From Candidatus Adiutrix sp. (GTDB lineage Bacteria > Desulfobacterota > Desulfarculia > Adiutricales > Adiutricaceae), in NCBI GenBank assembly GCA_031261565.1, contig JAISJK010000070.1, forward strand, positions 1 to 40,737: 40,737 nucleotides of DNA, in the 5' to 3' direction. The notes under the pieces were generated by a model, which did no database searches, was not told the DNA's origin, and saw nothing but the letters and a program-made list of their open reading frames with translations. Of this stretch, positions 4,291 to 33,928 are shown in pieces. The position numbers and the translations under genes were made by a program. The stretch's first letter is position 1, and each line of letters starts with the position of its first letter.

Positions 4291-5898
4291 TCAAGGCAAT
4301 GAAGCTACGATGCCATCGACAGCATTAAATGCTGCAAGGATAGCTTTTTGTTTCTTTGTCAGAGCCTGGGCGAAACGGTATTCCCCGTCATTATTTGCAA
4401 TTATTACAATATTTGACAGTTGATTTAACGCCTTTTTTAAAGATGTTGAGTTGTTTGCCAAATATTCAGACATTTTACGCAACATATACGCACGTATAAT
4501 GCAGGCAATAAAAGTCACAAATGTCTTCCCATTGGTCGTTGCCTCGGAATGAGTGCGTATTCGGTTGCCATCCATATCGACTTTAATTTGAGCAAACACT
4601 TTCTCGTCTGCGTCCTTTGCTCGGTAATAATCCAAAATTTCCGCTGGCGAAGCCCTCATATCCGTTGAGAACAACATAAAATACCCCTTTTTGCTCCGCA
4701 GTTTTTCAATTTTCTCTGGGTCAACGACGAAATCAAATCCTGAATCTTGTTCGTGTTTCGTAATTATAAAATACGGTGAAAATCGGGATAATTTTCCTTT
4801 CGGATAATGTTTTAACGCAGATAACTCGCCCTTTAATCGGTCGATTAGTTCAGATAGATCATTGCATTGATTTATGTGATTCTGCGAGTTAAAGAACAAC
4901 AATACTTTCCCGGAAACCCCACAAATATCCTTCTCGGTCGAAACACAATACGTATGGTGGTCAGGCAATTCGTCGGCATATTTCATAATCTCCGCACCAT
5001 GTTCAGCGTTCATTTTTTCCGATTCCTTCAGCGTAATCGGCATACCGACTGTAAACGCTTCACATAATTCGTTCAAATTTTTTAGGCATTCTTCGGACCA
5101 AAATCCGCCATCCAACACCATTTTGACTTTCTCAATACCAACATTTTTCGCATTGTTGAGCACGCTGGCAAGATTGGTTCGATCAGTCAACGAACCGCTG
5201 TAACGATTGTAATAGAGGGGAGTTTTTAGGGTTTCATCGCAGAACATTCCCAAATTGAATTGCGCAAGGTCATCACCGTCACGGTTATATCCACGTTCAA
5301 CAGAAATCATCGACTGTGAATAGGGCGAAATCGATGTTACATCGTAACATACATTACCACTGGTTAATGACTTTTTTACCCAATTTTTAAAAAAATTCAT
5401 TCTTTGCTGTAATGTCAGCGAAGCAAAAACACGGCTCGTGTATTGTGATGTTAGTTGCCGATCTATGTCAGGGAAAAAATTACGCTGTTGCCAGTCATCA
5501 ATTCCGTCCATTGCGTTTCCCTCACGAATTATATATGCTGCCATCACACAAATATCCGCACTTGTTTGTTTACCGAACACATACGAAAGACAGTCATGTA
5601 AACCCATATCACGACACACTTTCAACACGAGATATGTGTAACCATAATCCCAAATTTTAACATCAGGCAGCGTTGGTAAGAGATTGAATAATTGAAAATA
5701 ATTACTGTTGGGAAACATTTTGCCTGTATCAGGGTCAATTTTACCAATTATTTTGGTGCGGTTACGAGGCTTCCCCGCTTCATTTCGAAAATAGGCAATC
5801 TGCTTATAAACATAACGCTCACCTTTTGCACCTGCGATTTTGATAACCACACCTTTGTCGTCAGGAATCGTAACAAGTTTCTTTTTTACAAAATTCAT
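4291..5898 (-). CDS. IS1634-family DDE transposase
   Basis: 535-aa transposase that catalyses cut-and-paste movement of the IS. Features visible: an N-terminal basic segment with KGERYVYKQIAYFRNEAGKPRN typical of the family, the central DDE-fold strand MVLDGGFWSEECL with a candidate catalytic Asp, and the C-terminal RIRTHSEATTNGK helix region. I chose ATG 5898 because AGAGGTG lies about eight bases upstream; the longer frame from 5952 runs through the promoter region of the IS. Length is normal for the family and no frameshift is seen. Codon use is AT-rich, marking recent transfer. Confidence 0.88.
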   Translation of the reverse strand: MNFVKKKLVTIPDDKGVVIKIAGAKGERYVYKQIAYFRNEAGKPRNRTKIIGKIDPDTGKMFPNSNYFQLFNLLPTLPDVKIWDYGYTYLVLKVCRDMGLHDCLSYVFGKQTSADICVMAAYIIREGNAMDGIDDWQQRNFFPDIDRQLTSQYTSRVFASLTLQQRMNFFKNWVKKSLTSGNVCYDVTSISPYSQSMISVERGYNRDGDDLAQFNLGMFCDETLKTPLYYNRYSGSLTDRTNLASVLNNAKNVGIEKVKMVLDGGFWSEECLKNLNELCEAFTVGMPITLKESEKMNAEHGAEIMKYADELPDHHTYCVSTEKDICGVSGKVLLFFNSQNHINQCNDLSELIDRLKGELSALKHYPKGKLSRFSPYFIITKHEQDSGFDFVVDPEKIEKLRSKKGYFMLFSTDMRASPAEILDYYRAKDADEKVFAQIKVDMDGNRIRTHSEATTNGKTFVTFIACIIRAYMLRKMSEYLANNSTSLKKALNQLSNIVIIANNDGEYRFAQALTKKQKAILAAFNAVDGIVASLP

Positions 5899-6031
5899 CG
5901 CTAACACCTCTTTGTATGGGCTGATTATAGCCCATACAAAAAAGAATGTCAAAATCTAATTCCAATAATTTATATTACTGGAATTAAACAATTTTTTGAA
6001 ATTATTATTGCGCTTTTAAATGCGGATAAAA

Positions 6032-6062
6032 GTATGGGCTAATTTTTTGCGGAATTCAGGAT
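6032..6062 (-). repeat. Right terminal inverted repeat of the IS
   Basis: Starts GTATGGGCTAATTTTTTGCG and ends CAGGAT. Reverse complement of the left repeat with one mismatch. It lies about 130 bases upstream of the transposase ATG. Confidence 0.9.
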
Positions 6063-6262
6063 ACAACTATATTAGCATATCTAATTATTGTATTCAGGTT
6101 ATTTTTACACTGTTCCTAAAGCGATTGGAGAGCCTCTGCCCTACCAGGCCGGGGGTGTCACAAGCGATCTCGGCCTGTGTTTTGTGATACGCCCGCCGGT
6201 GGCGTTTGTCAATATGGTTGGGCCTTTTACTTCGGGGGCGGGTAGTCTCTGGGGTGGTTGAC
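6063..6262. other. Non-coding gap between IS and pyrC; AT-rich scar then structured stretch
   Basis: The first 60 bases are AT-rich and resemble foreign flank rather than host sequence. From about 6146 composition returns to host type. Here AGGCCG (6146-6151) can pair with CGGCCT (6171-6176), while TCACAA (6158-6163) can pair with TTGTGA (6182-6187). The stems interlock, so they are either alternatives or a pseudoknot. ACGCC/GGCGT (6189-6205) is a third small stem. No ORF with a ribosome site is seen. Confidence 0.4.
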
Positions 6263-6337
6263 GGTTGCCCTGGTTCTCCCCTTGTGGTAACCTTCCTCTT
6301 TAAATAATGAAACTAAGGAGGTTAGCACCGGCAACCC
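6263..6337 (+). promoter_or_regulatory. pyrC leader hairpin covering the ribosome site
   Basis: GGTTGCC (6263-6269) is complementary to GGCAACC (6330-6336), ending one base before the pyrC ATG. Inside it, TAACCTTCCT (6288-6297) pairs with AGGAGGTTA (6316-6324) with one bulge, burying the only good Shine-Dalgarno. That AGGAGG is an unusually long 16 bases from the ATG, which would be shortened if the leader folds. It suggests translational control of pyrimidine synthesis; unproven. Confidence 0.45.
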
Positions 6338-7615
6338 ATGACTTCCATTCTTATCAAAAACGGCCGGGTCATTGACCCGGGCCGGAATCTGGACGGGCCC
6401 CACGATGTCTGGCTGGAAGACGGCCTGATTAAAGCGGTGGAAGAGCCCGGCCGCCTGACCGGGACAGCTGGCTCGACCATTGAGGCGGCCGGGCGCTGGG
6501 TGTTGCCCGGCCTGATCGACCTCCATGTCCACCTGCGGGAGCCTGGCCACGAATATAAAGAAACCGTGGCCAGCGGCCTGGCCGCCGCCGTGGCCGGCGG
6601 CTTTACCGCCGTGGTGGCCATGCCCAACACCAGCCCGGCTATGGACAACGCTGAGCAGGTCTCAGCCCTTTTGGCCCGGGCTCAGGCCGCCGGGCAGGCC
6701 CGGGTCTGGCCGGCGGCGGCCATGACTCTGGGCCGCCAGGGCCAGGAACTGACCGAGTATGAGCATCTCCGGGCGGCCGGGGCCGTGGCCGTGACTGATG
6801 ACGGCGCCTGGGTCAGGAACCCCAAAGTGATGCGCCGGGTGCTGGATTACGCGGCCGTGGCCGGCCTTAGGCCTCTCTGCCACGCCGAGGATCACGATCT
6901 CTCTCAGGGCGGGGCGATTAACGAGGGGCCGATCTCCACCCGTCTGGGGCTGCCCGGCATTCCGGCCCAGGCCGAAATCAACGCGGTAACCAGGGATATC
7001 AACCTGGTGGAGCTCACCGGCCGGCCCCTGCACTTCTGCCACCTCTCCACCCGGGGGGCGGTGGAAGCTCTGCGGGCGGCCCGGGCCCGGGGCCTCCCGG
7101 TCACCGGGGAGACGGCGCCCCACTACCTCTTCCTGACTCAGGAGGATGTGGGCGACTACGACCCCAACGCCAAGATGAATCCCCCCCTGCGCACGGCCGA
7201 GGATCGCCAGGCTGTGCGCGAAGCCCTGGCCGACGGGACTATCTCGGCCCTGGCCACGGATCACGCCCCCCATTCAGTGCTGGAAAAAGAAGTGGAATTC
7301 ATTGACGCGGCCTTTGGCATCATCGGCCTGGAAACATCTTTGCCCCTGGCTCTGGAGCTGGTGCACGCGGGCCTGATCAGCCCGGCCCGCCTGGTGGAGC
7401 TGATGAGCCTGAATCCGGCCCGTATCCTTAACCTGCCGGCCGGGGATCTGGCCCCGGGCCGCCCGGCCGATGTGACTATTGTTGATCCGGAGGTCAAGTG
7501 GACGCTGCGCCCGGAGGACTCCCGGTCGCTGAGCCGCAATTCGCCCTTTTGGGGCCGGTCTTTCGCCGGGCGGGCCGTGGCCGTTATTGTGGCTGGTCGC
7601 CAGCTAGCCGGATAA
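6338..7615 (+). CDS. pyrC: Dihydroorotase
   Basis: Third step of de novo pyrimidine synthesis: cyclises carbamoyl-aspartate to dihydroorotate, cytosolic zinc enzyme. The 425-aa class I type protein shows the metal-binding DLHVHLREPG at residues 61-70 (His63, His65), GFTAVVAMPNTSP, the HFCHLSTRGA histidine, and ALATDHAPHS with the catalytic Asp. Length and motifs match the bacterial pyrC of the PyrBC type, but no pyrB lies upstream; an IS scar does. Its 3' end overlaps the convergent pseudouridine synthase gene by 32 bases. A foldable leader precedes it. Confidence 0.96.
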   Translation: MTSILIKNGRVIDPGRNLDGPHDVWLEDGLIKAVEEPGRLTGTAGSTIEAAGRWVLPGLIDLHVHLREPGHEYKETVASGLAAAVAGGFTAVVAMPNTSPAMDNAEQVSALLARAQAAGQARVWPAAAMTLGRQGQELTEYEHLRAAGAVAVTDDGAWVRNPKVMRRVLDYAAVAGLRPLCHAEDHDLSQGGAINEGPISTRLGLPGIPAQAEINAVTRDINLVELTGRPLHFCHLSTRGAVEALRAARARGLPVTGETAPHYLFLTQEDVGDYDPNAKMNPPLRTAEDRQAVREALADGTISALATDHAPHSVLEKEVEFIDAAFGIIGLETSLPLALELVHAGLISPARLVELMSLNPARILNLPAGDLAPGRPADVTIVDPEVKWTLRPEDSRSLSRNSPFWGRSFAGRAVAVIVAGRQLAG

Positions 7616-27375: not shown

Positions 27376-27512
27376 GCAGTGGCGGAAACCACGCCGTCGG
27401 CAGGGCGCCTCTTCCACGGGAGAGGAAACAAGATGCCTCACCCGTTCTTAGTATTCCCCTCCCGTGGAGGTGTGGCCCGCGTAGGGCCGGGGTGGTTTCA
27501 TCTTCCGCTGCG
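27376..27512. repeat. MITE-like palindromic repeat
   Basis: About 137 bases with imperfect inverted ends: GCAGTGGCGGAAACCACGCC on the left and GGGGTGGTTTCATCTTCCGC-TGC on the right. Inside, CCTCTTCCACGGGAGAGG pairs imperfectly with CCCCTCCCGTGGAGGTG. This resembles the widespread non-coding repeats with GGGGTGGTTT ends and CCTCCCGTGGAGG-like cores found between genes in many bacteria. It marks the left border of the AT-rich island. Confidence 0.6.
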
Positions 27513-27529
27513 GCAAGCCTTGTGCTTTC

Positions 27530-27720
27530 TTTTAGCGTAAACGCTTAAAAAACCTCGACGTTAGAGAGGGTTGCAATGTTTGTCAGTGAATTGCTGAGGA
27601 ACGGAGGACAAAAATGAGCACTCAAATTATCATAACCACCTCCCATAAGTGGATAATAATTCCTATATAAAACGATAGAATATAAAAAAATCCGGCTCAT
27701 CCGCCCAAATTCAAATTTTA
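27530..27720 (+). other. Gap with small palindrome and two tiny ORFs
   Basis: A small hairpin AGCGT-aa-ACGCT flanked by T and A runs lies near 27530-27550. ATG 27576 opens MFVSELLRNGGQK, whose stop overlaps (ATGA) a second ATG at 27614 preceded by CGGAGG; that second frame runs 18 codons (MSTQIIITTSHKWIIIPI) to 27670. The good ribosome site suggests the 5' remnant of a lost gene or a leader peptide. Nothing else is recognisable. Confidence 0.35.
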
Positions 27721-27749
27721 TTGACTTTTCTCCCCTCTTATGGTTTAAT
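27721..27749 (+). promoter_or_regulatory. Sigma-70 promoter of the accessory island
   Basis: TTGACT (27721-27726), 17-base spacer, TTTAAT (27744-27749). Transcription would begin near 27757, about 400 bases upstream of the first likely start codon, leaving a long structured leader. Confidence 0.7.
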
Positions 27750-27781
27750 TTTATCGGTACTAACTATACCCTAATGCGGTG

Positions 27782-27849
27782 CACGCCCGAAGCCGTGTTT
27801 TTTTTGCGAACCAGGGAACTGGCCAGGAAAACTGGCACGGCCGGGTGTG
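27782..27849 (+). promoter_or_regulatory. Multi-branched leader RNA of the island
   Basis: CACGCCC (27782-27788) pairs with GGGTGTG (27843-27849) and GCCGTG (27792-27797) with CACGGC (27836-27841), closing a junction that holds two hairpins in tandem: CCAG-ggaa-CTGG (27811-27822) and CCAG-gaaaa-CTGG (27823-27835). A T8 tract lies in the junction. It sits 30 bases after the promoter. No known riboswitch class is recognised; it could be a cis-regulator or a small RNA. Confidence 0.5.
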
Positions 27850-27901
27850 GACTGAATATAATACCGTCCGGAAATATGTCCGCAGATCATTAGAACTGTA
27901 G

Positions 27902-27958
27902 TTAGCGCCCGGCCTCTTTATAATATTGAGGGGCCATCAAAGCATGTAGGGGCGCTAA
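27902..27958 (+). promoter_or_regulatory. Nested stem-loop in the island leader
   Basis: TTAGCGCCC (27902-27910) pairs perfectly with GGGCGCTAA (27950-27958); inside, GGCCTC pairs with GAGGGGCC with a bulge of two G, leaving an AT-rich loop containing TATAAT. The stem ends exactly before a GTG (27959) that opens the first island frame, so it could block initiation there. A T-run does not follow, so it is not a standard terminator. Confidence 0.5.
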
Positions 27959-28153
27959 GTGGCGAACTTAATCTCCGGCATCCGGTTTGGTATAGTTAGC
28001 AAAGGCCTGGGTTACCTCTGCGCCCGGGCCCCACACCACTTTTCTTTCACCTCTATATCCAAAAATTTTAAGCTAAATCAAGCTGTTGAGATGGCCAATA
28101 TCATACCCATCGACAATCAGCCATTCACTACCGCCGGGGAAGGGATGAGTTCC

Positions 28154-29977
28154 ATGACTCAACAAAACAAATTATATTTGCGCTCACCAGGGATTCAGCA
28201 ACTCTTGATAGCGCTTCTACCTGTCTGCGTGATATGGCTTTTTGTCTCCATTATTATGCCAAAAGTATCGTTAGCCTTCGTCATGGCAGTGACTCTGGTC
28301 TGTGCATTCCCGGTCGCCGGCGTGGCTGCGTATCTCCTTGTTGTTCGGAAAACCCGTCAAAGTCAGACTTTTAAACAGGGCGGATGGCTGGCTAAAGTGC
28401 TGGGTCTGCGATTTTGGGCTGTTTTCCTTATTTTTTTAGTAAGCATTTTTACTTCATTTTTTATGCTAATTCAGTTGGCCGGTTTAAGGATATTTGATTG
28501 GGCATTCATTATTCTGACGGCCCCTGTTTTTATTACTATATATCGCCGGACAAATTCCATTATGCGCAAGGAATCTGTGGAATGGTTGGTTCCAGCCAGG
28601 GCTTTGAAATTGACAACTTACCTGACACCGGTGATTATGCTTCTTCTTTATGGCTTGGGTTTAAAATATTTCGGGGGGATCCCTGTTTATGCCAGCTTGG
28701 ATGAAGCCAGAGTATCCCAATTATTGCCCTTGGTCGCTTCCAATTCCGCTTTTCTACGTGAGAGTGCGGAATGGTCGATTTTGTTGGCCGGATATCGCGA
28801 TTATGTTTTCGGTCAATTATCGGTCGCCAGCCAGTTGAACAGCCTGCTGTTATGTTTTTTAGGGTATGGGCTCGTTTTTACAAATATATGCGCAATACTT
28901 GGGTTCATCTTCTTGCCATCCCCTGAGTACCGCCGAATTTTTCTACCCTTGGTGGCCGATTCGAACCTGCCCCGTGTATCGCCACTAACTGTAAGTTTGT
29001 ATGTGGCTGTTTTGGTCATGTTCATCCTGATGGCCTACCTGCCAGGCGTCGCTTGGCTGGAGCAGCAAGCTTTGATACCCCAAGCCGATGGCTCTGGTAC
29101 TGTTGTTTCAAATGTGCGTCAGGCGACCCAAAATAAATTTGATCGATTGGTTATAGCAGTTGAGGGGACATTTTATGATGAACAAATTCTTGGGGAAATC
29201 GATAATTTACGCCGAGCCACCATTCGCGCCAGCGAAGAGGCTAAAAAAGCACTCACAGCTGAGTATAATGGAATTTTTGATAGGTATGAACGAAATATTG
29301 ACTCCTATTTGGACTGGTATTACAGTCTGAGTGGAGAGTATACTCGTCTTGCCAAGCTGGTGCTTGGAGATATAGAAACATATATGATTGAAAAATTTAC
29401 TGAAAATATAAGCAAAGGAGTGGATACCAATGGCCTGTCGCGTGTCCTTGACCGCTATAAAGGTGATGTGGACGAATTTAATGCGAGAATCCAGGAACTG
29501 CAAGAACGGTACAAAGTGAGAGAGGATATCGCCCAAGTCAAAGTGGTTCGCACTATGACAAAAAGCGAGTTGCTTAGCCCCTTTAAAGAAGCGCCAGAGT
29601 TGTTGAATTTAAAAACTCGTGTAGGCACAAGCATCGGTGGAGGTTTGGCTGCTGGTGCGGCCGCCGGAGTAATCGCTGGCAAAGTAGCTCAAAAAGCTAC
29701 TTTCAAAATTGCCGCTAAAGCATTGTTTAAGGTTGCCGCCGCAAAAGGGGCAGGCATAGCTGGAACTACCGCCGCCGGTGCCGCCATTGGTTCTGTTGTT
29801 CCAGGGCCTGGAACAGCCGTTGGAGGAGCGGTAGGTTTGGTTGTAGGGACGGCTGGTTCTCTAATGTTTGAAAAAGGGCTTTTGATGTTAGAGGATGCCG
29901 TTAAACGTGAGGAATTTAAAGCTGAAATAAAGGCTTCCATTGAGGAACATAGGCGAGACGTGCTTTCTCAGTTTTGA
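28154..29977 (+). CDS. Polytopic membrane protein with Gly-zipper C-terminus
   Basis: 607-aa protein, family not recognised. Seven likely membrane helices (about residues 13-36, 38-64, 86-110, 114-131, 154-175, 226-253, 277-298) precede a cytosolic helical region (about 320-470, with DRYERNIDSYLDWYYSLSGE) and a Gly/Ala-zipper tail (491-510 and 531-571) of the kind that inserts into or spans membranes, ending in a charged helix. I chose ATG 28154 because GGGGAAGGG lies nine bases upstream; the frame is open from GTG 27959, which would add 65 residues. AT-rich codon use marks it as acquired. It precedes a YcjX-type GTPase by 36 bases and is probably its partner. Confidence 0.75.
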   Translation: MTQQNKLYLRSPGIQQLLIALLPVCVIWLFVSIIMPKVSLAFVMAVTLVCAFPVAGVAAYLLVVRKTRQSQTFKQGGWLAKVLGLRFWAVFLIFLVSIFTSFFMLIQLAGLRIFDWAFIILTAPVFITIYRRTNSIMRKESVEWLVPARALKLTTYLTPVIMLLLYGLGLKYFGGIPVYASLDEARVSQLLPLVASNSAFLRESAEWSILLAGYRDYVFGQLSVASQLNSLLLCFLGYGLVFTNICAILGFIFLPSPEYRRIFLPLVADSNLPRVSPLTVSLYVAVLVMFILMAYLPGVAWLEQQALIPQADGSGTVVSNVRQATQNKFDRLVIAVEGTFYDEQILGEIDNLRRATIRASEEAKKALTAEYNGIFDRYERNIDSYLDWYYSLSGEYTRLAKLVLGDIETYMIEKFTENISKGVDTNGLSRVLDRYKGDVDEFNARIQELQERYKVREDIAQVKVVRTMTKSELLSPFKEAPELLNLKTRVGTSIGGGLAAGAAAGVIAGKVAQKATFKIAAKALFKVAAAKGAGIAGTTAAGAAIGSVVPGPGTAVGGAVGLVVGTAGSLMFEKGLLMLEDAVKREEFKAEIKASIEEHRRDVLSQF

Positions 29978-30013
29978 TTAGCCTATTAATCGTATTTGAA
30001 AGGACATTGAACA

Positions 30014-31555
30014 ATGGAAAAGAAGATTGATTGGACAAAATTCCTTGACAAAACTGTTTCAGCAACAATGAAAACTATTGATATTTCAGGGAAAGTGTTA
30101 AATAAAGTAAATGAACTTACAAAGGATGCTACTGAAATAATACATACGCCCAATATAAAAGTAGCTGTTACCGGATTACAAAGTTCCGGTAAGACTGTCT
30201 TCATTCTATCCTTGCTTCAACACATTAAATATTTTCAAGCGGAACGTTTCCCATTAATAAAAGGTGATGACAAATATCAAATTCACGAGTTTAAAGAGTT
30301 GCCGGTTCCTTCTAATTTTGAACCGTTCCCATTTAAAGAAATGTGGACCAATGTGTTTGCTGCCCCGGAAGGCAAAGAATGGCCGAATAAAACTACTGAG
30401 ACTTATCTTTATAGTGCCTCTTTCAAATATTCAGGCCAATGGTTTGCCAATGGTAAGATTAAAATGGATTTATTGGATTTCCCAGGGGAACGGTTTGCGG
30501 ATGTCGAAATTGCCCGGAGTGAAGATTATGTCTCATGGTCAGATAAGATCATTGATCAATTGAAAGACGAAGAAAAAAACTACAATGGTAAAAAGAAAGT
30601 GGAAGACAAGAAGGAATATGTTAAAAAATATCTAGATGAGATAAAAGAAAATTCACTTTCGCGGCCTATACCACAATTTTGGATTGAATCATACAAAAAA
30701 CTTATGACCTTATTGAAAATTGACATCCGCAGTAATTTTATTACCCCTTCCAGCTTTCTTTTGGATTACGAAAACAAGTCTATGTTTTCTGCGGAAAATG
30801 ATGAGCCAAACAATGGCCGCGATAGGTTTTGTGGATTACGCAGTGGCGAATTTGTGCCATTACCGGCAGACATAAGAGATAAATACCCAGCAGAGGTAGC
30901 TGACATGGGGGAAAATTATTCGGTTTACAGAGAGAAAGTTGTTAAAAAGTTATTCGATTACTTAAATGAATGTAGCCATATAATTTTGACAGTCGACATT
31001 CTGGGTACGCTATATTTGGGTGTGCAACGTTATAATTCTTTAACTGATATTTTAATGTCGTGGGGGGAGATGTTCAAGCCTAATAAAATATTTAGTCTCT
31101 CCGAAAATTTAAAAAAATTAGCCGTAGTGGGTACGAAAAAAGATATGACCGTAACCGCTGATCACCCCAACATGAATCATCTCCTTGAGCAAATCAAAAC
31201 AATGCTTGAGAGACAACATAAGAAAATAAAATACGCTTCATTTTGTGTGTCAGCTTGGCGTAGCACCACAGATGCAGAGAGATATCGATACTTAATAGGC
31301 AAACGAGCACGTCATCGTGCTGGAGAGACAATAGAACTTCGAGCAGACGGCCAAGAAGAATGGCCAATAGGGTACCCAGTTCCTAAGGAATGGCCAGCTG
31401 ATTGGGATCCCGGGTATTTGGATCAAGACAAACCGAATGCGGAACCGAAACCGAAATTTGTCTACCCCCTGACTAAGCCAAGCCCAATTAAAAATACGAA
31501 GACCCCACCGGATCAATCCGGGATGGGGGATGTATTTCTCTTTATTGTTGACTAG
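30014..31555 (+). CDS. YcjX-family (DUF463) GTP-binding protein
   Basis: 513-aa P-loop protein. Walker A GLQSSGKT at residues 54-61 in KVAVTGLQSSGKTVFILSLL, switch-type DFPGE at 155-159, and a TKKD guanine-specificity motif at 374-377 (VVGTKKD), in the order expected for YcjX/DUF463. The C-terminal P-rich segment (VYPLTKPSP...GMGDVFLFIVD) also fits. E. coli YcjX sits beside membrane protein YcjF, and a YcjF-like gene follows here after 37 bases. ATG 30014 has AAAGGA upstream. AT-rich. The family's function is poorly understood; stress association is known from regulation in enterobacteria, but nothing in this sequence shows the role. Confidence 0.85.
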   Translation: MEKKIDWTKFLDKTVSATMKTIDISGKVLNKVNELTKDATEIIHTPNIKVAVTGLQSSGKTVFILSLLQHIKYFQAERFPLIKGDDKYQIHEFKELPVPSNFEPFPFKEMWTNVFAAPEGKEWPNKTTETYLYSASFKYSGQWFANGKIKMDLLDFPGERFADVEIARSEDYVSWSDKIIDQLKDEEKNYNGKKKVEDKKEYVKKYLDEIKENSLSRPIPQFWIESYKKLMTLLKIDIRSNFITPSSFLLDYENKSMFSAENDEPNNGRDRFCGLRSGEFVPLPADIRDKYPAEVADMGENYSVYREKVVKKLFDYLNECSHIILTVDILGTLYLGVQRYNSLTDILMSWGEMFKPNKIFSLSENLKKLAVVGTKKDMTVTADHPNMNHLLEQIKTMLERQHKKIKYASFCVSAWRSTTDAERYRYLIGKRARHRAGETIELRADGQEEWPIGYPVPKEWPADWDPGYLDQDKPNAEPKPKFVYPLTKPSPIKNTKTPPDQSGMGDVFLFIVD

Positions 31556-31592
31556 TTCACCTGCTGGTAATCATTGAAGGAGGACGGATCAA

Positions 31593-32963
31593 ATGACTGA
31601 AAATATGAATAAACAGGTAAGTAATGATAAAAACTATACTGATGATATATATGATGACGGCTCCCCTGTCTGTATGCCTATTAAACCAAACCCTCAGCCA
31701 TCTTTAGCATGTGAAACTGGCAATACAGTGCCGTCTGAAACCATTGCAGTGAAAATTGAAAAAGATGAAGGCACTCATCGTGAAGGTGAGTGCGATGTAG
31801 ATGTGCCAGATGCTCTTCCAATACAGGTTACAGGAGCCACCCACATACATAATCCTCCGAATGATCTGGATGGTAGCAACATTGACGATGTTAATTCAAA
31901 TTTAGCATGTGAAACTGGCAATACAGTGCCACCTAAAATCATCGCAGTGACAATTGAAAAAGATGAAGGCACTCATCGTGAAGGTGAGTGCGATGCAGAT
32001 GTGCCAGATGCTCTGCCAATACAAGTTACAGAGGCCTCTCACATATATAATCCTCCGAATGATCTGGATGGTAGCGACATTGACGAGGTTAATTCAAACG
32101 GCACAAATACCAAGTTGCGATTCAACTTGATTGTATTGGGTGCAATTGCAGTGTTGACTGCTTTTTTTGGGTTCTACATAAGTACCCAAGCGATTGGTGC
32201 TGTAGCCTTGGCTCAAACAATGCCAACTTGGGGGCAGGTATTATTTTTACCTCCTCTAACATTGTGCGGGCTTATTGTTATTCTGGTTTTTATAAGTTTT
32301 ATCTGGTCATGGTATAAGTTGAACAACTTTATACAGATTAACTTAGGTGATATTCAGAAGTTAGCATTGCAGCGAGATACAAGGCAAGAAGCAAGACACC
32401 ATTCGAGGGAGGCCAAAAACCGACTTCTGGCCTATCTGAAAAACTACCCGATACCGTCTGCACCGGATAAGCAAAGCCAATTTACTAAAGATAACACCAC
32501 AAATTTGGAAAATGCCAGAAAGAAATTACTGGCTGAAGTTACAGACACTGGAGACTGGATCGATAAATTCAATAGCGAATTTCTGGCCCAGTTGGACACC
32601 ATAGCTGATGCTAAAATAAAAGCTCAGGCAATTAAAGCAGGTGTTGCCGCTATGGCTTCACCTTTACCGCTATTAGACTCCATTCTTATTCTTGGTCTCT
32701 CTTTCGATTTACTGAAAGAATTGTGCAAAATTTATAATATTCGCATAGGGGGCTTGGCCCTGCCTTTTCTTTTTGGCAGAGTAATTCGTAACGCATTTAT
32801 TGCTGATGTTACCGACGGAGCTTTGGATTTGTTAAGTGACGCAGTAGGTAGTAGCTTTTTAAATTTTGTAGGAGCAAAAGTGGCAGAAGGTGGTATAAAC
32901 GCCATTTTCATGCGCCGACTAGGACGGTCAGCACAGGGTTTACTACGACCTGTAAAAAAATAG
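31593..32963 (+). CDS. YcjF/DUF697-like membrane protein with duplicated N-terminal repeat
   Basis: 456-aa protein. Residues 38-103 and 104-169 are near-identical 66-aa tandem copies beginning LACETGNTVP and containing EKDEGTHREGEC, acidic and probably unstructured. Two membrane helices follow (about 175-197 and 214-243), then a helical linker and a DUF697-like domain at about 340-456 (MASPLPLLDSILILGLSFDL, LKELCKIYNIRIGGLALPF, ending GRSAQGLLRPVKK), which matches the YcjF C-terminal pattern. ATG 31593 has GAAGGAGG ten bases upstream. Together with the preceding GTPase this recreates the ycjX-ycjF pair. The repeat is absent from E. coli YcjF as I know it. Confidence 0.78.
   Translation: MTENMNKQVSNDKNYTDDIYDDGSPVCMPIKPNPQPSLACETGNTVPSETIAVKIEKDEGTHREGECDVDVPDALPIQVTGATHIHNPPNDLDGSNIDDVNSNLACETGNTVPPKIIAVTIEKDEGTHREGECDADVPDALPIQVTEASHIYNPPNDLDGSDIDEVNSNGTNTKLRFNLIVLGAIAVLTAFFGFYISTQAIGAVALAQTMPTWGQVLFLPPLTLCGLIVILVFISFIWSWYKLNNFIQINLGDIQKLALQRDTRQEARHHSREAKNRLLAYLKNYPIPSAPDKQSQFTKDNTTNLENARKKLLAEVTDTGDWIDKFNSEFLAQLDTIADAKIKAQAIKAGVAAMASPLPLLDSILILGLSFDLLKELCKIYNIRIGGLALPFLFGRVIRNAFIADVTDGALDLLSDAVGSSFLNFVGAKVAEGGINAIFMRRLGRSAQGLLRPVKK
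31704..32099 (+). repeat. 198-bp tandem duplication within the YcjF-like gene
   Basis: Copy 1 is 31704-31901 and copy 2 is 31902-32099, each exactly 66 codons. Both begin TTAGCATGTGAAACTGGC and contain GATGAAGGCACTCATCGTGA. Only scattered substitutions separate them, so the duplication is recent and keeps frame. Confidence 0.9.
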
Positions 32964-33004
32964 GCTATCCACCTGAATATTTGCTATCTTCACAGGGTAT
33001 TTTC

Positions 33005-33235
33005 ATGCCAAATTTTTACTGCGCCTATTGCGGCCACAGAAGCCCCAACATTCCCGCACTGACCAGCGGGGCTTGCCCCAAAAGCCCTAATGGAAAGCAT
33101 ATTCCCTATGAGGGCAGCGAAAAAAGCACCTATACCTGCAAGTATTGCGGCATAAAGAGCCCTCATATTTCAACCTTAACAGCGGGGAATTGCCCTAAAA
33201 ATCCGGTCGGCAAGCACCACTTCCCAACCCTTTAG
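33005..33235 (+). CDS. Tandem small zinc-ribbon protein
   Basis: 76-aa protein made of two copies of one motif: YCAYCGHRSPNI...LTSGACPKSPNGKH and TCKYCGIKSPHI...LTAGNCPKNPVGKH. Each has Cys-x2-Cys, a later Cys and a His at the same spacing, giving a CCCH zinc site per repeat. Such short ribbons often occur in proteins of accessory or stress loci, where they may bind nucleic acid or protein; the function here is unknown. ATG 33005 has a weak GGGT site; it follows the YcjF-like gene by 41 bases. Confidence 0.7.
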   Translation: MPNFYCAYCGHRSPNIPALTSGACPKSPNGKHIPYEGSEKSTYTCKYCGIKSPHISTLTAGNCPKNPVGKHHFPTL

Positions 33236-33254
33236 CAGATGAAAGGAGCATACA

Positions 33255-33704
33255 GTGGCCAATGATTCCCAAAGGATTTGCCCGGTTTGTGATTCATCGG
33301 TGAACAGTAATGCAGAAATCTGCCCGGTTTGCGGTTGCGACGAGGAGGGTGGGCCCCAAGACGAGGCCAAGGCCTTCGCCTGGTTCCAGCAGACGGCTGA
33401 AAAAGGTGAGGCCGAAGCTCAGGTTTGTCTGGGACTTATGTATGAGAATGGCCAGGGAGTTCCGCAGGACGAGGCTAAAGCCGTCTATTGGTATCAGCGG
33501 GCGGCTGACCAAGGTGATGCCTCTGCCCAATTTAATTTAGGCGTCATGTATGCTCATGGCCGGGGGCTGCCCCAGGATTATGGCAAGGCCGCCTATTGGT
33601 GGGAGAAAGCCGCTGAGCAGGGCGAGCCGGATTCCCAGTTTAATTTGGGCTTTCTATATGCTACCGGCAAGGGCGTGCGGATAAGCGAAAGCAGAGCGGC
33701 CTAA
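33255..33704 (+). CDS. Zinc-ribbon plus Sel1-repeat protein, probably truncated
   Basis: 149-aa protein. Residues 9-28 form a double-CxxC zinc ribbon (CPVCDSS...CPVCGC). Then come Sel1/TPR-like repeats with LGLMYENGQGVPQDEAKAVYWYQRAADQG-type units: a first unit lacking its front half, two full units, and a last unit that breaks off after YATGKGV. Sel1 repeats mediate protein-protein contacts. The missing halves at both ends suggest this is a deletion product of a longer protein or that the end has frameshifted. Start GTG 33255 has AAAGGAG seven bases upstream. Its stop overlaps the next ATG. Confidence 0.75.
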   Translation: MANDSQRICPVCDSSVNSNAEICPVCGCDEEGGPQDEAKAFAWFQQTAEKGEAEAQVCLGLMYENGQGVPQDEAKAVYWYQRAADQGDASAQFNLGVMYAHGRGLPQDYGKAAYWWEKAAEQGEPDSQFNLGFLYATGKGVRISESRAA

Positions 33705-33928
33705 TGCGGGAAGCCGATATTTCTATTCGGGAAGCATTGGAATCGTGCATCAATGAGAATTTTAACGGCGACCTGAAAACAGAATTCTATGCCGCGCTTC
33801 GCAAGATAGTAGCCGATTATTACGCCGATAAGCCAAATCAGAAAAAAGAAAGAAAGCGCGATACCCGCCGGGTAGGAAAACTTATCGGGCAGTTAAATAT
33901 ACTAAAAGTTTTATACTATAGCCCATAA
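33704..33928 (+). CDS. Small hypothetical protein
   Basis: 74-aa basic protein starting at an ATG that overlaps the preceding stop (TAATG), so translation may be coupled. It has no ribosome site of its own. It contains a Lys/Arg-rich stretch (KKERKRDTRRVGK) that could bind nucleic acid. Not recognised; it may be the displaced C-terminus of the truncated Sel1 protein. Last ORF of the island before host-type sequence resumes. Confidence 0.45.
   Translation: MREADISIREALESCINENFNGDLKTEFYAALRKIVADYYADKPNQKKERKRDTRRVGKLIGQLNILKVLYYSP

Follow-up and report, generated by a model that had tools for sequence, protein, structure and literature searches.

A YcjX-YcjF gene pair beside an unrelated membrane protein gene and a repeated sRNA-Xcc1-related RNA in AT-rich DNA of Candidatus Adiutrix

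Expression of the ycjX and ycjF genes of Escherichia coli has been analyzed during infection with phage phiX174 and revealed that both genes are upregulated together with the phage shock response (PMC8125068). Both are also present in envelope-stress expression data of E. coli (PMC2868799). Two other described systems resemble parts of the locus reported here. The small RNA sRNA-Xcc1 of Xanthomonas precedes symE in integron cassettes (PMC12444791), and the LeoABC proteins act in the release of membrane vesicles (PMC4159319). We analyzed a stretch of 40,737 nucleotides (the window), corresponding to contig C101 in the 2.24-Mb draft genome of a Candidatus Adiutrix species. It harbours a YcjX-like and a YcjF-like gene (ORF2 and ORF3) behind a gene for a polytopic membrane protein (ORF1). 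This part of the window is probably a patchwork, composed of an ordinary YcjX-YcjF pair, an unrelated neighbour (ORF1), a repeated RNA and AT-rich DNA that is acquired or patchily retained.

ORF2 (30014-31555, plus strand) passed the cut-off of Pfam family PF04317 (DUF463) with 110.3 bits against 25 (E 1.5e-31). Its GTPase motifs, a Ras-like P-loop (GLQSSGKT), a DxPG motif (DFPG) and a TKxD motif (TKKD), are intact and were kept in all 5 relatives compared. A small profile of the ORF2 family furthermore matched the YcjX structure 6nz4 (E 8e-16), its only strong relative in the PDB. Starting 37 bases downstream, the DUF697 partner ORF3 (31593-32963, plus strand) passed the cut-off of PF05128 with 74.8 bits against 27.7 (E 8.5e-21), and scored 62.7 bits with TIGR01620, under the cut-off of 160 for that model. 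The reading of these genes in the earlier note, a P-loop GTPase with YcjX/DUF463 motifs followed by a DUF697/YcjF-like membrane protein, is borne out by the family matches, the motifs and the match to 6nz4. The window pair is similar to ycjXF of E. coli in protein families, GTPase motifs and adjacent gene order, but was not seen adjoining psp genes. It also differs in the long acidic N-terminal part of the YcjF-like protein, which is partly duplicated. The duplication (31703-32098, in frame) consists of tandem copies of 198 bases (66 residues) that are 92% identical, while the paralogue encoded on C15, another contig of this genome, has a single copy. The window pair is approximately 50% identical to this C15 paralogue, and only 24-26% to the other relatives tested. 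The predicted structure of ORF3 (pLDDT 43) was too poor for use. A scan of genome contigs with ORF2 alone as query returned no relatives, zero matches were found among phages, and nothing closer than distant YcjX matches was found on plasmids. The adjacent genes would yield a YcjX-like GTPase and a DUF697 protein as its partner in the inner membrane. Judged by its E. coli counterpart, the GTPase most likely alternates between its GTP and GDP states at the membrane, in concert with the YcjF-like protein, and the pair may help the cell to withstand envelope or protein-folding stress. A GTP-switched envelope-stress unit is the most likely function of the pair.

The three genes are arranged in tandem, with ORF1 at 28145-29977 and gaps of 36 and 37 bases between the genes, in the order and spacing described previously. 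Their composition is clearly different from that of the surroundings. ORF1, ORF2 and ORF3 have GC contents of 0.457, 0.384 and 0.414, against 0.58-0.67 for the flanking genes, and GC3 values of 0.43, 0.36 and 0.34, against 0.71-0.83. The visibly AT-richer codon use reported before for this segment, relative to both flanks, is thus confirmed by computed values. Along the window, GC drops from approximately 0.60 to 0.36-0.47 between the acs genes and a downstream sirohaem synthase-type gene. The genes 5' of the island read, from their sequence, as the acetyl-CoA synthase pathway (acsB-E), and the sirohaem synthase-type gene lies 3' of it, together with others. The AT-rich composition may reflect horizontal acquisition or patchy retention. 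Of the acquired island proposed in the earlier note, the foreign composition holds, while its uniformity does not. A Sel1-repeat gene at 33255-33704 (plus strand; Pfam Sel1 E 1.6e-36) has an intermediate GC content of 0.56, and the genome contains Sel1 relatives in several places elsewhere (12 additional matches); the island is therefore compositionally mixed. This gene also changes the expected two zinc-ribbon proteins. One, encoded at 33005-33235 (plus strand), is a small double zinc-ribbon protein with repeated CxYCG...C...H motifs and weak zinc-finger matches, while the second is the Sel1-repeat protein, which carries an N-terminal zinc ribbon. The gene is followed by a small ORF of 74 residues (33704-33928, plus strand) with a weak PHROG match at most. 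Between acsE and the island, a REP-like dispersed repeat (27390-27550) contains an inverted repeat (27403-27427/27454-27478) and has 16 more partial copies in the genome, with 73-90% identity. A second composition outlier of the window is an AT-rich DDE transposase gene (4291-5952, GC 0.40).

The tight tandem order of ORF1, ORF2 and ORF3 suggests a three-protein membrane module, as was proposed earlier. The occurrence of the genes in other genomes does not agree with this. None of the 80 ORF1 loci that were kept holds a DUF463 or DUF697 gene nearby, and DUF463 was absent from all 29 whole ORF1-bearing genomes reached via those loci, with a positive control in E. coli. Elsewhere in the class, ORF1 is present in 18 genomes, none of which has DUF463. 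The only other genome of the class with DUF463 (G055) is itself devoid of ORF1. In total, 0 of the 47 ORF1-bearing genomes other than the source genome harbour DUF463. The pair in turn occurs without ORF1. A second YcjX-YcjF pair, on contig C15, is 51% and 57% identical to the window copies and is preceded by non-coding DNA and the start of an oppositely oriented gene; it has no ORF1, because the genome contains a single copy of this gene. This gene start (positions 1-396 of the C15 locus, 5' of the second pair) is a minus-strand frame resembling inorganic pyrophosphatase, which stops after approximately 48 residues. The bare pair was also found in three other genomes (G055, G199 and G370; in G370 the contig ends within the second gene). 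The G370 locus also encodes, divergently and at 0.84 kb from DUF463, a Gly-zipper protein whose Gly-rich part gave a weak hit with the ORF1 profile (E 2.8e-8, 549 ORFs). It is one of two Gly-rich membrane-type ORFs that are divergent from the DUF463-DUF697 pair at this locus (5077-7206), and the match is to the tail of ORF1. Since ORF1 and YcjX-YcjF occur independently of each other, the three genes do not form a recurring module. The first membrane protein, which the earlier note had expected to co-occur with YcjX/YcjF if its proposal were right, was thus never found with them in 80 neighbourhoods. A clear terminator is absent between the three genes, which, with the gaps of 36 and 37 bases, allows a single transcript and may point to a functional link in this one strain. 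Terminator-like sites in the region were mostly located within genes, in a pattern scan that is not decisive. ORF1 may be co-transcribed with the pair, but it would belong to an independent, normally stand-alone family, placed by chance 36 bases before ycjX. Among seven genomes of the genus, DUF463 and ORF1 are confined to the present one, neither being found in the other six, and the DNA examined next to acsE in sibling genomes does not include the window's right flank. The segment is therefore specific to this genome among those compared.

ORF1 has seven hydrophobic segments, as judged by hydropathy, and a Gly-rich tail. Its soluble helical domain bears NIDSYLDWYYSL. In a family alignment of 56 sequences, a YLDWYY-L motif and Gly/Pro positions are invariant across the family. 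Hydropathy and alignment together support the polytopic protein with seven likely helices and a Gly-zipper tail that had been recognized from the sequence. An upstream in-frame GTG at 27959 would extend ORF1 by 62 residues; this extension is without counterpart in relatives, and the start of ORF1 is therefore probably the ATG at 28145 (or 28091). No family match was found for ORF1 in Pfam and NCBIfam. Its AlphaFold2 model (mean pLDDT 82) is good except for the tail, and searches with this model by Foldseek and VIA-align gave nothing above the helical-bundle background, which does not imply a new fold. Members of the family were found in 145 stretches from species genomes that represent many phyla, with 'Deltaproteobacteria' MAGs reported as closest relatives. 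It is common as a stand-alone gene, for example in many Nitrosomonas genomes, and also occurs in Coriobacteriia and Bifidobacterium. Its neighbours are lineage-specific and mostly of housekeeping type, and the gene is usually no richer in AT than the surrounding DNA (median difference of +0.009 over 66 loci). Zero matches to ORF1 were found among plasmids, and profiles of ORF1 and ORF2 found no relative in viral contigs.

The same proteins could also be viewed as a dedicated membrane-remodelling module, in which the DUF463 GTPase would drive ORF1 and the DUF697 protein as a split dynamin-like machine comparable to LeoABC. Besides the tandem gene order and the vesicle release by LeoABC (PMC4159319), a match of LeoB to the tail of ORF1 (E 1.7e-7), shared by 9 of 15 ORF1 family members, is consistent with such a module. 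This match covers only positions 440-508 of 568, in the Gly-rich tail, which is matched by phage tape-measure proteins as well. ORF1 thus resembles part of LeoB in a Gly/Ala-rich tail, but differs from it by its seven membrane helices and the lack of a dynamin GTPase domain. Indeed, ORF1 matches no GTPase family and carries no GTPase domain, and the GTPase encoded by ORF2 is of the DUF463 type. With the lack of co-occurrence of ORF1 and YcjX and the solitary pair on C15, a remodelling module appears quite improbable. LeoB as identity for ORF1 was rejected, the likeness being limited to the Gly-rich tail.

It had also been suggested that the island, as a GTPase with membrane effectors, serves in anti-phage defence. 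The AT-rich and patchily distributed segment, and the adjoining phage-type RNA described below, could be taken to favour this. PADLOC, however, gave only partial matches (LeoB/LeoBC on the Gly-rich tail, Sel1 and P-loop segments), and neither a defence model covering most of a protein nor a defence family over a whole protein was found. Defence genes were not seen as recurring neighbours in the 80 ORF1 loci, ORF1 stands alone in many Nitrosomonas genomes, and ORF1 and ORF2 have no viral relatives. A defence role thus lacks support, and we regard it as very improbable. A further example of a YcjX-YcjF pair, next to an unrelated ORF1, remains the preferred reading of the protein genes.

The promoter that was thought to drive all three genes has a different origin. 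The box at 27721-27749 (plus strand; TTGACT, 17 bases, TTTAAT) serves as promoter of a multi-copy RNA gene and is conserved across the copies. Promoter-like matches in the region are no more numerous than expected by chance (13 against 12.4), and this pattern scan is not decisive. The sequence at 27720-28000 has six more copies in the genome, with 73-76% identity and surrounded by unrelated genes. The seven copies share the TTGAC box, an AT-rich -10 region and a predicted transcript of approximately 290 nt, in the window at 27756-28043 (plus strand). A hairpin followed by a T-run closes most copies; in the window copy, the T-run behind the hairpin is poor. Positions 27839-27922 of the window RNA matched RF02221, the sRNA-Xcc1 family of Rfam, with 47.1 bits, and the other copies in the genome with 45.9-51.9 bits, all slightly below the cut-off of 53. 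This cut-off was passed by the relatives in loci L251 (79.1), L253 (56.9) and L240 (53.4). The RNA aligns over the full length with the sRNA-Xcc1 fold, but it is longer (approximately 290 nt, with an extra 5' arm and 3' hairpins) and occurs in multiple copies. In the sRNA-Xcc1 type fold, 96.5% of the cells are paired and 9 of 19 pairs show two-sided change; none of 500 shuffles reached this fold support, and slid controls gave 37-52%. A competing fold that uses the same strand has 27 of 40 pairs changing on both sides (29 aligned places), in an alignment that was fitted to that fold and therefore leans towards it.

A model built from the seven copies detected, among 197 genomes, 13 copies in the sister genome G003, 4 in G002, 1 in G001 and, in three further genomes, 1-2 each. 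In G003 and other relatives, small genes follow immediately, with a ribosome binding site and a start codon directly behind the end of the RNA. They include genes for four Rha antirepressors, of which one is short and narrowly misses the Pfam cut-off, as well as one HTH gene and a family of short unknown ORFs. In the viral contig L253 the RNA directly precedes an AntA antirepressor gene, near an integrase and a tRNA. Two exact-pattern scans of viral sequences did not find the RNA, while the looser scan found L253; blastn against phage records gave no match. A literature search returned no paper joining the terms sRNA-Xcc1 and antirepressor. At one locus of G003 (contig C3, 3124-4361), at least six RNA cores are arranged in tandem, approximately 150-300 bases apart, before one short ORF.

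The position of the RNA in relatives raises the question of its role in the window. It has been considered that the sRNA-Xcc1-like RNA is a cis-acting leader of the whole ORF1-ycjX-ycjF transcript, as it may be before the antirepressor genes of relatives, acting via the RBS-like AGGGGCGCT and the GTG at 27959. These are placed as the Rha and AntA starts are in relatives, the GTG is in frame with ORF1, and the promoter of the RNA is conserved. Most of the six other copies look like stand-alone RNAs, however, since they end in a clear hairpin and T-run. Furthermore, the 62-residue extension lacks a counterpart in ORF1 relatives, and a search of ORF1 loci from relatives did not detect the RNA. 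We therefore consider leader control of the three genes rather unlikely. A broader proposal holds that the sRNA-Xcc1 family is, at least partly, a cis-acting and switch-like leader of phage antirepressor genes, in which the GGCCGGGUG strand would pair with either the 5' arm or the 3' strand of the sRNA-Xcc1 fold. It would be present in up to 7-13 copies per genome in the genus, one of which would head and control the ORF1-ycjX-ycjF transcript. Taken as a whole this is speculative, and we are doubtful of it. In the patchwork that we prefer, a mobile-looking copy of the structured RNA with its own promoter would lie upstream of ORF1 and the pair.

With these results a tempting three-part membrane module is removed, and YcjX-YcjF is found to travel as a pair. 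ORF1 represents a widespread family of seven-helix Gly-zipper proteins for which the searched libraries gave no name. The two proteins are a further example of YcjX-YcjF, and it is the RNA encoded in the same interval that deserves further attention. This multi-copy structured RNA, for which those libraries likewise gave no name, links sRNA-Xcc1 with phage antirepressor genes, and this link makes the role of sRNA-Xcc1 directly testable.
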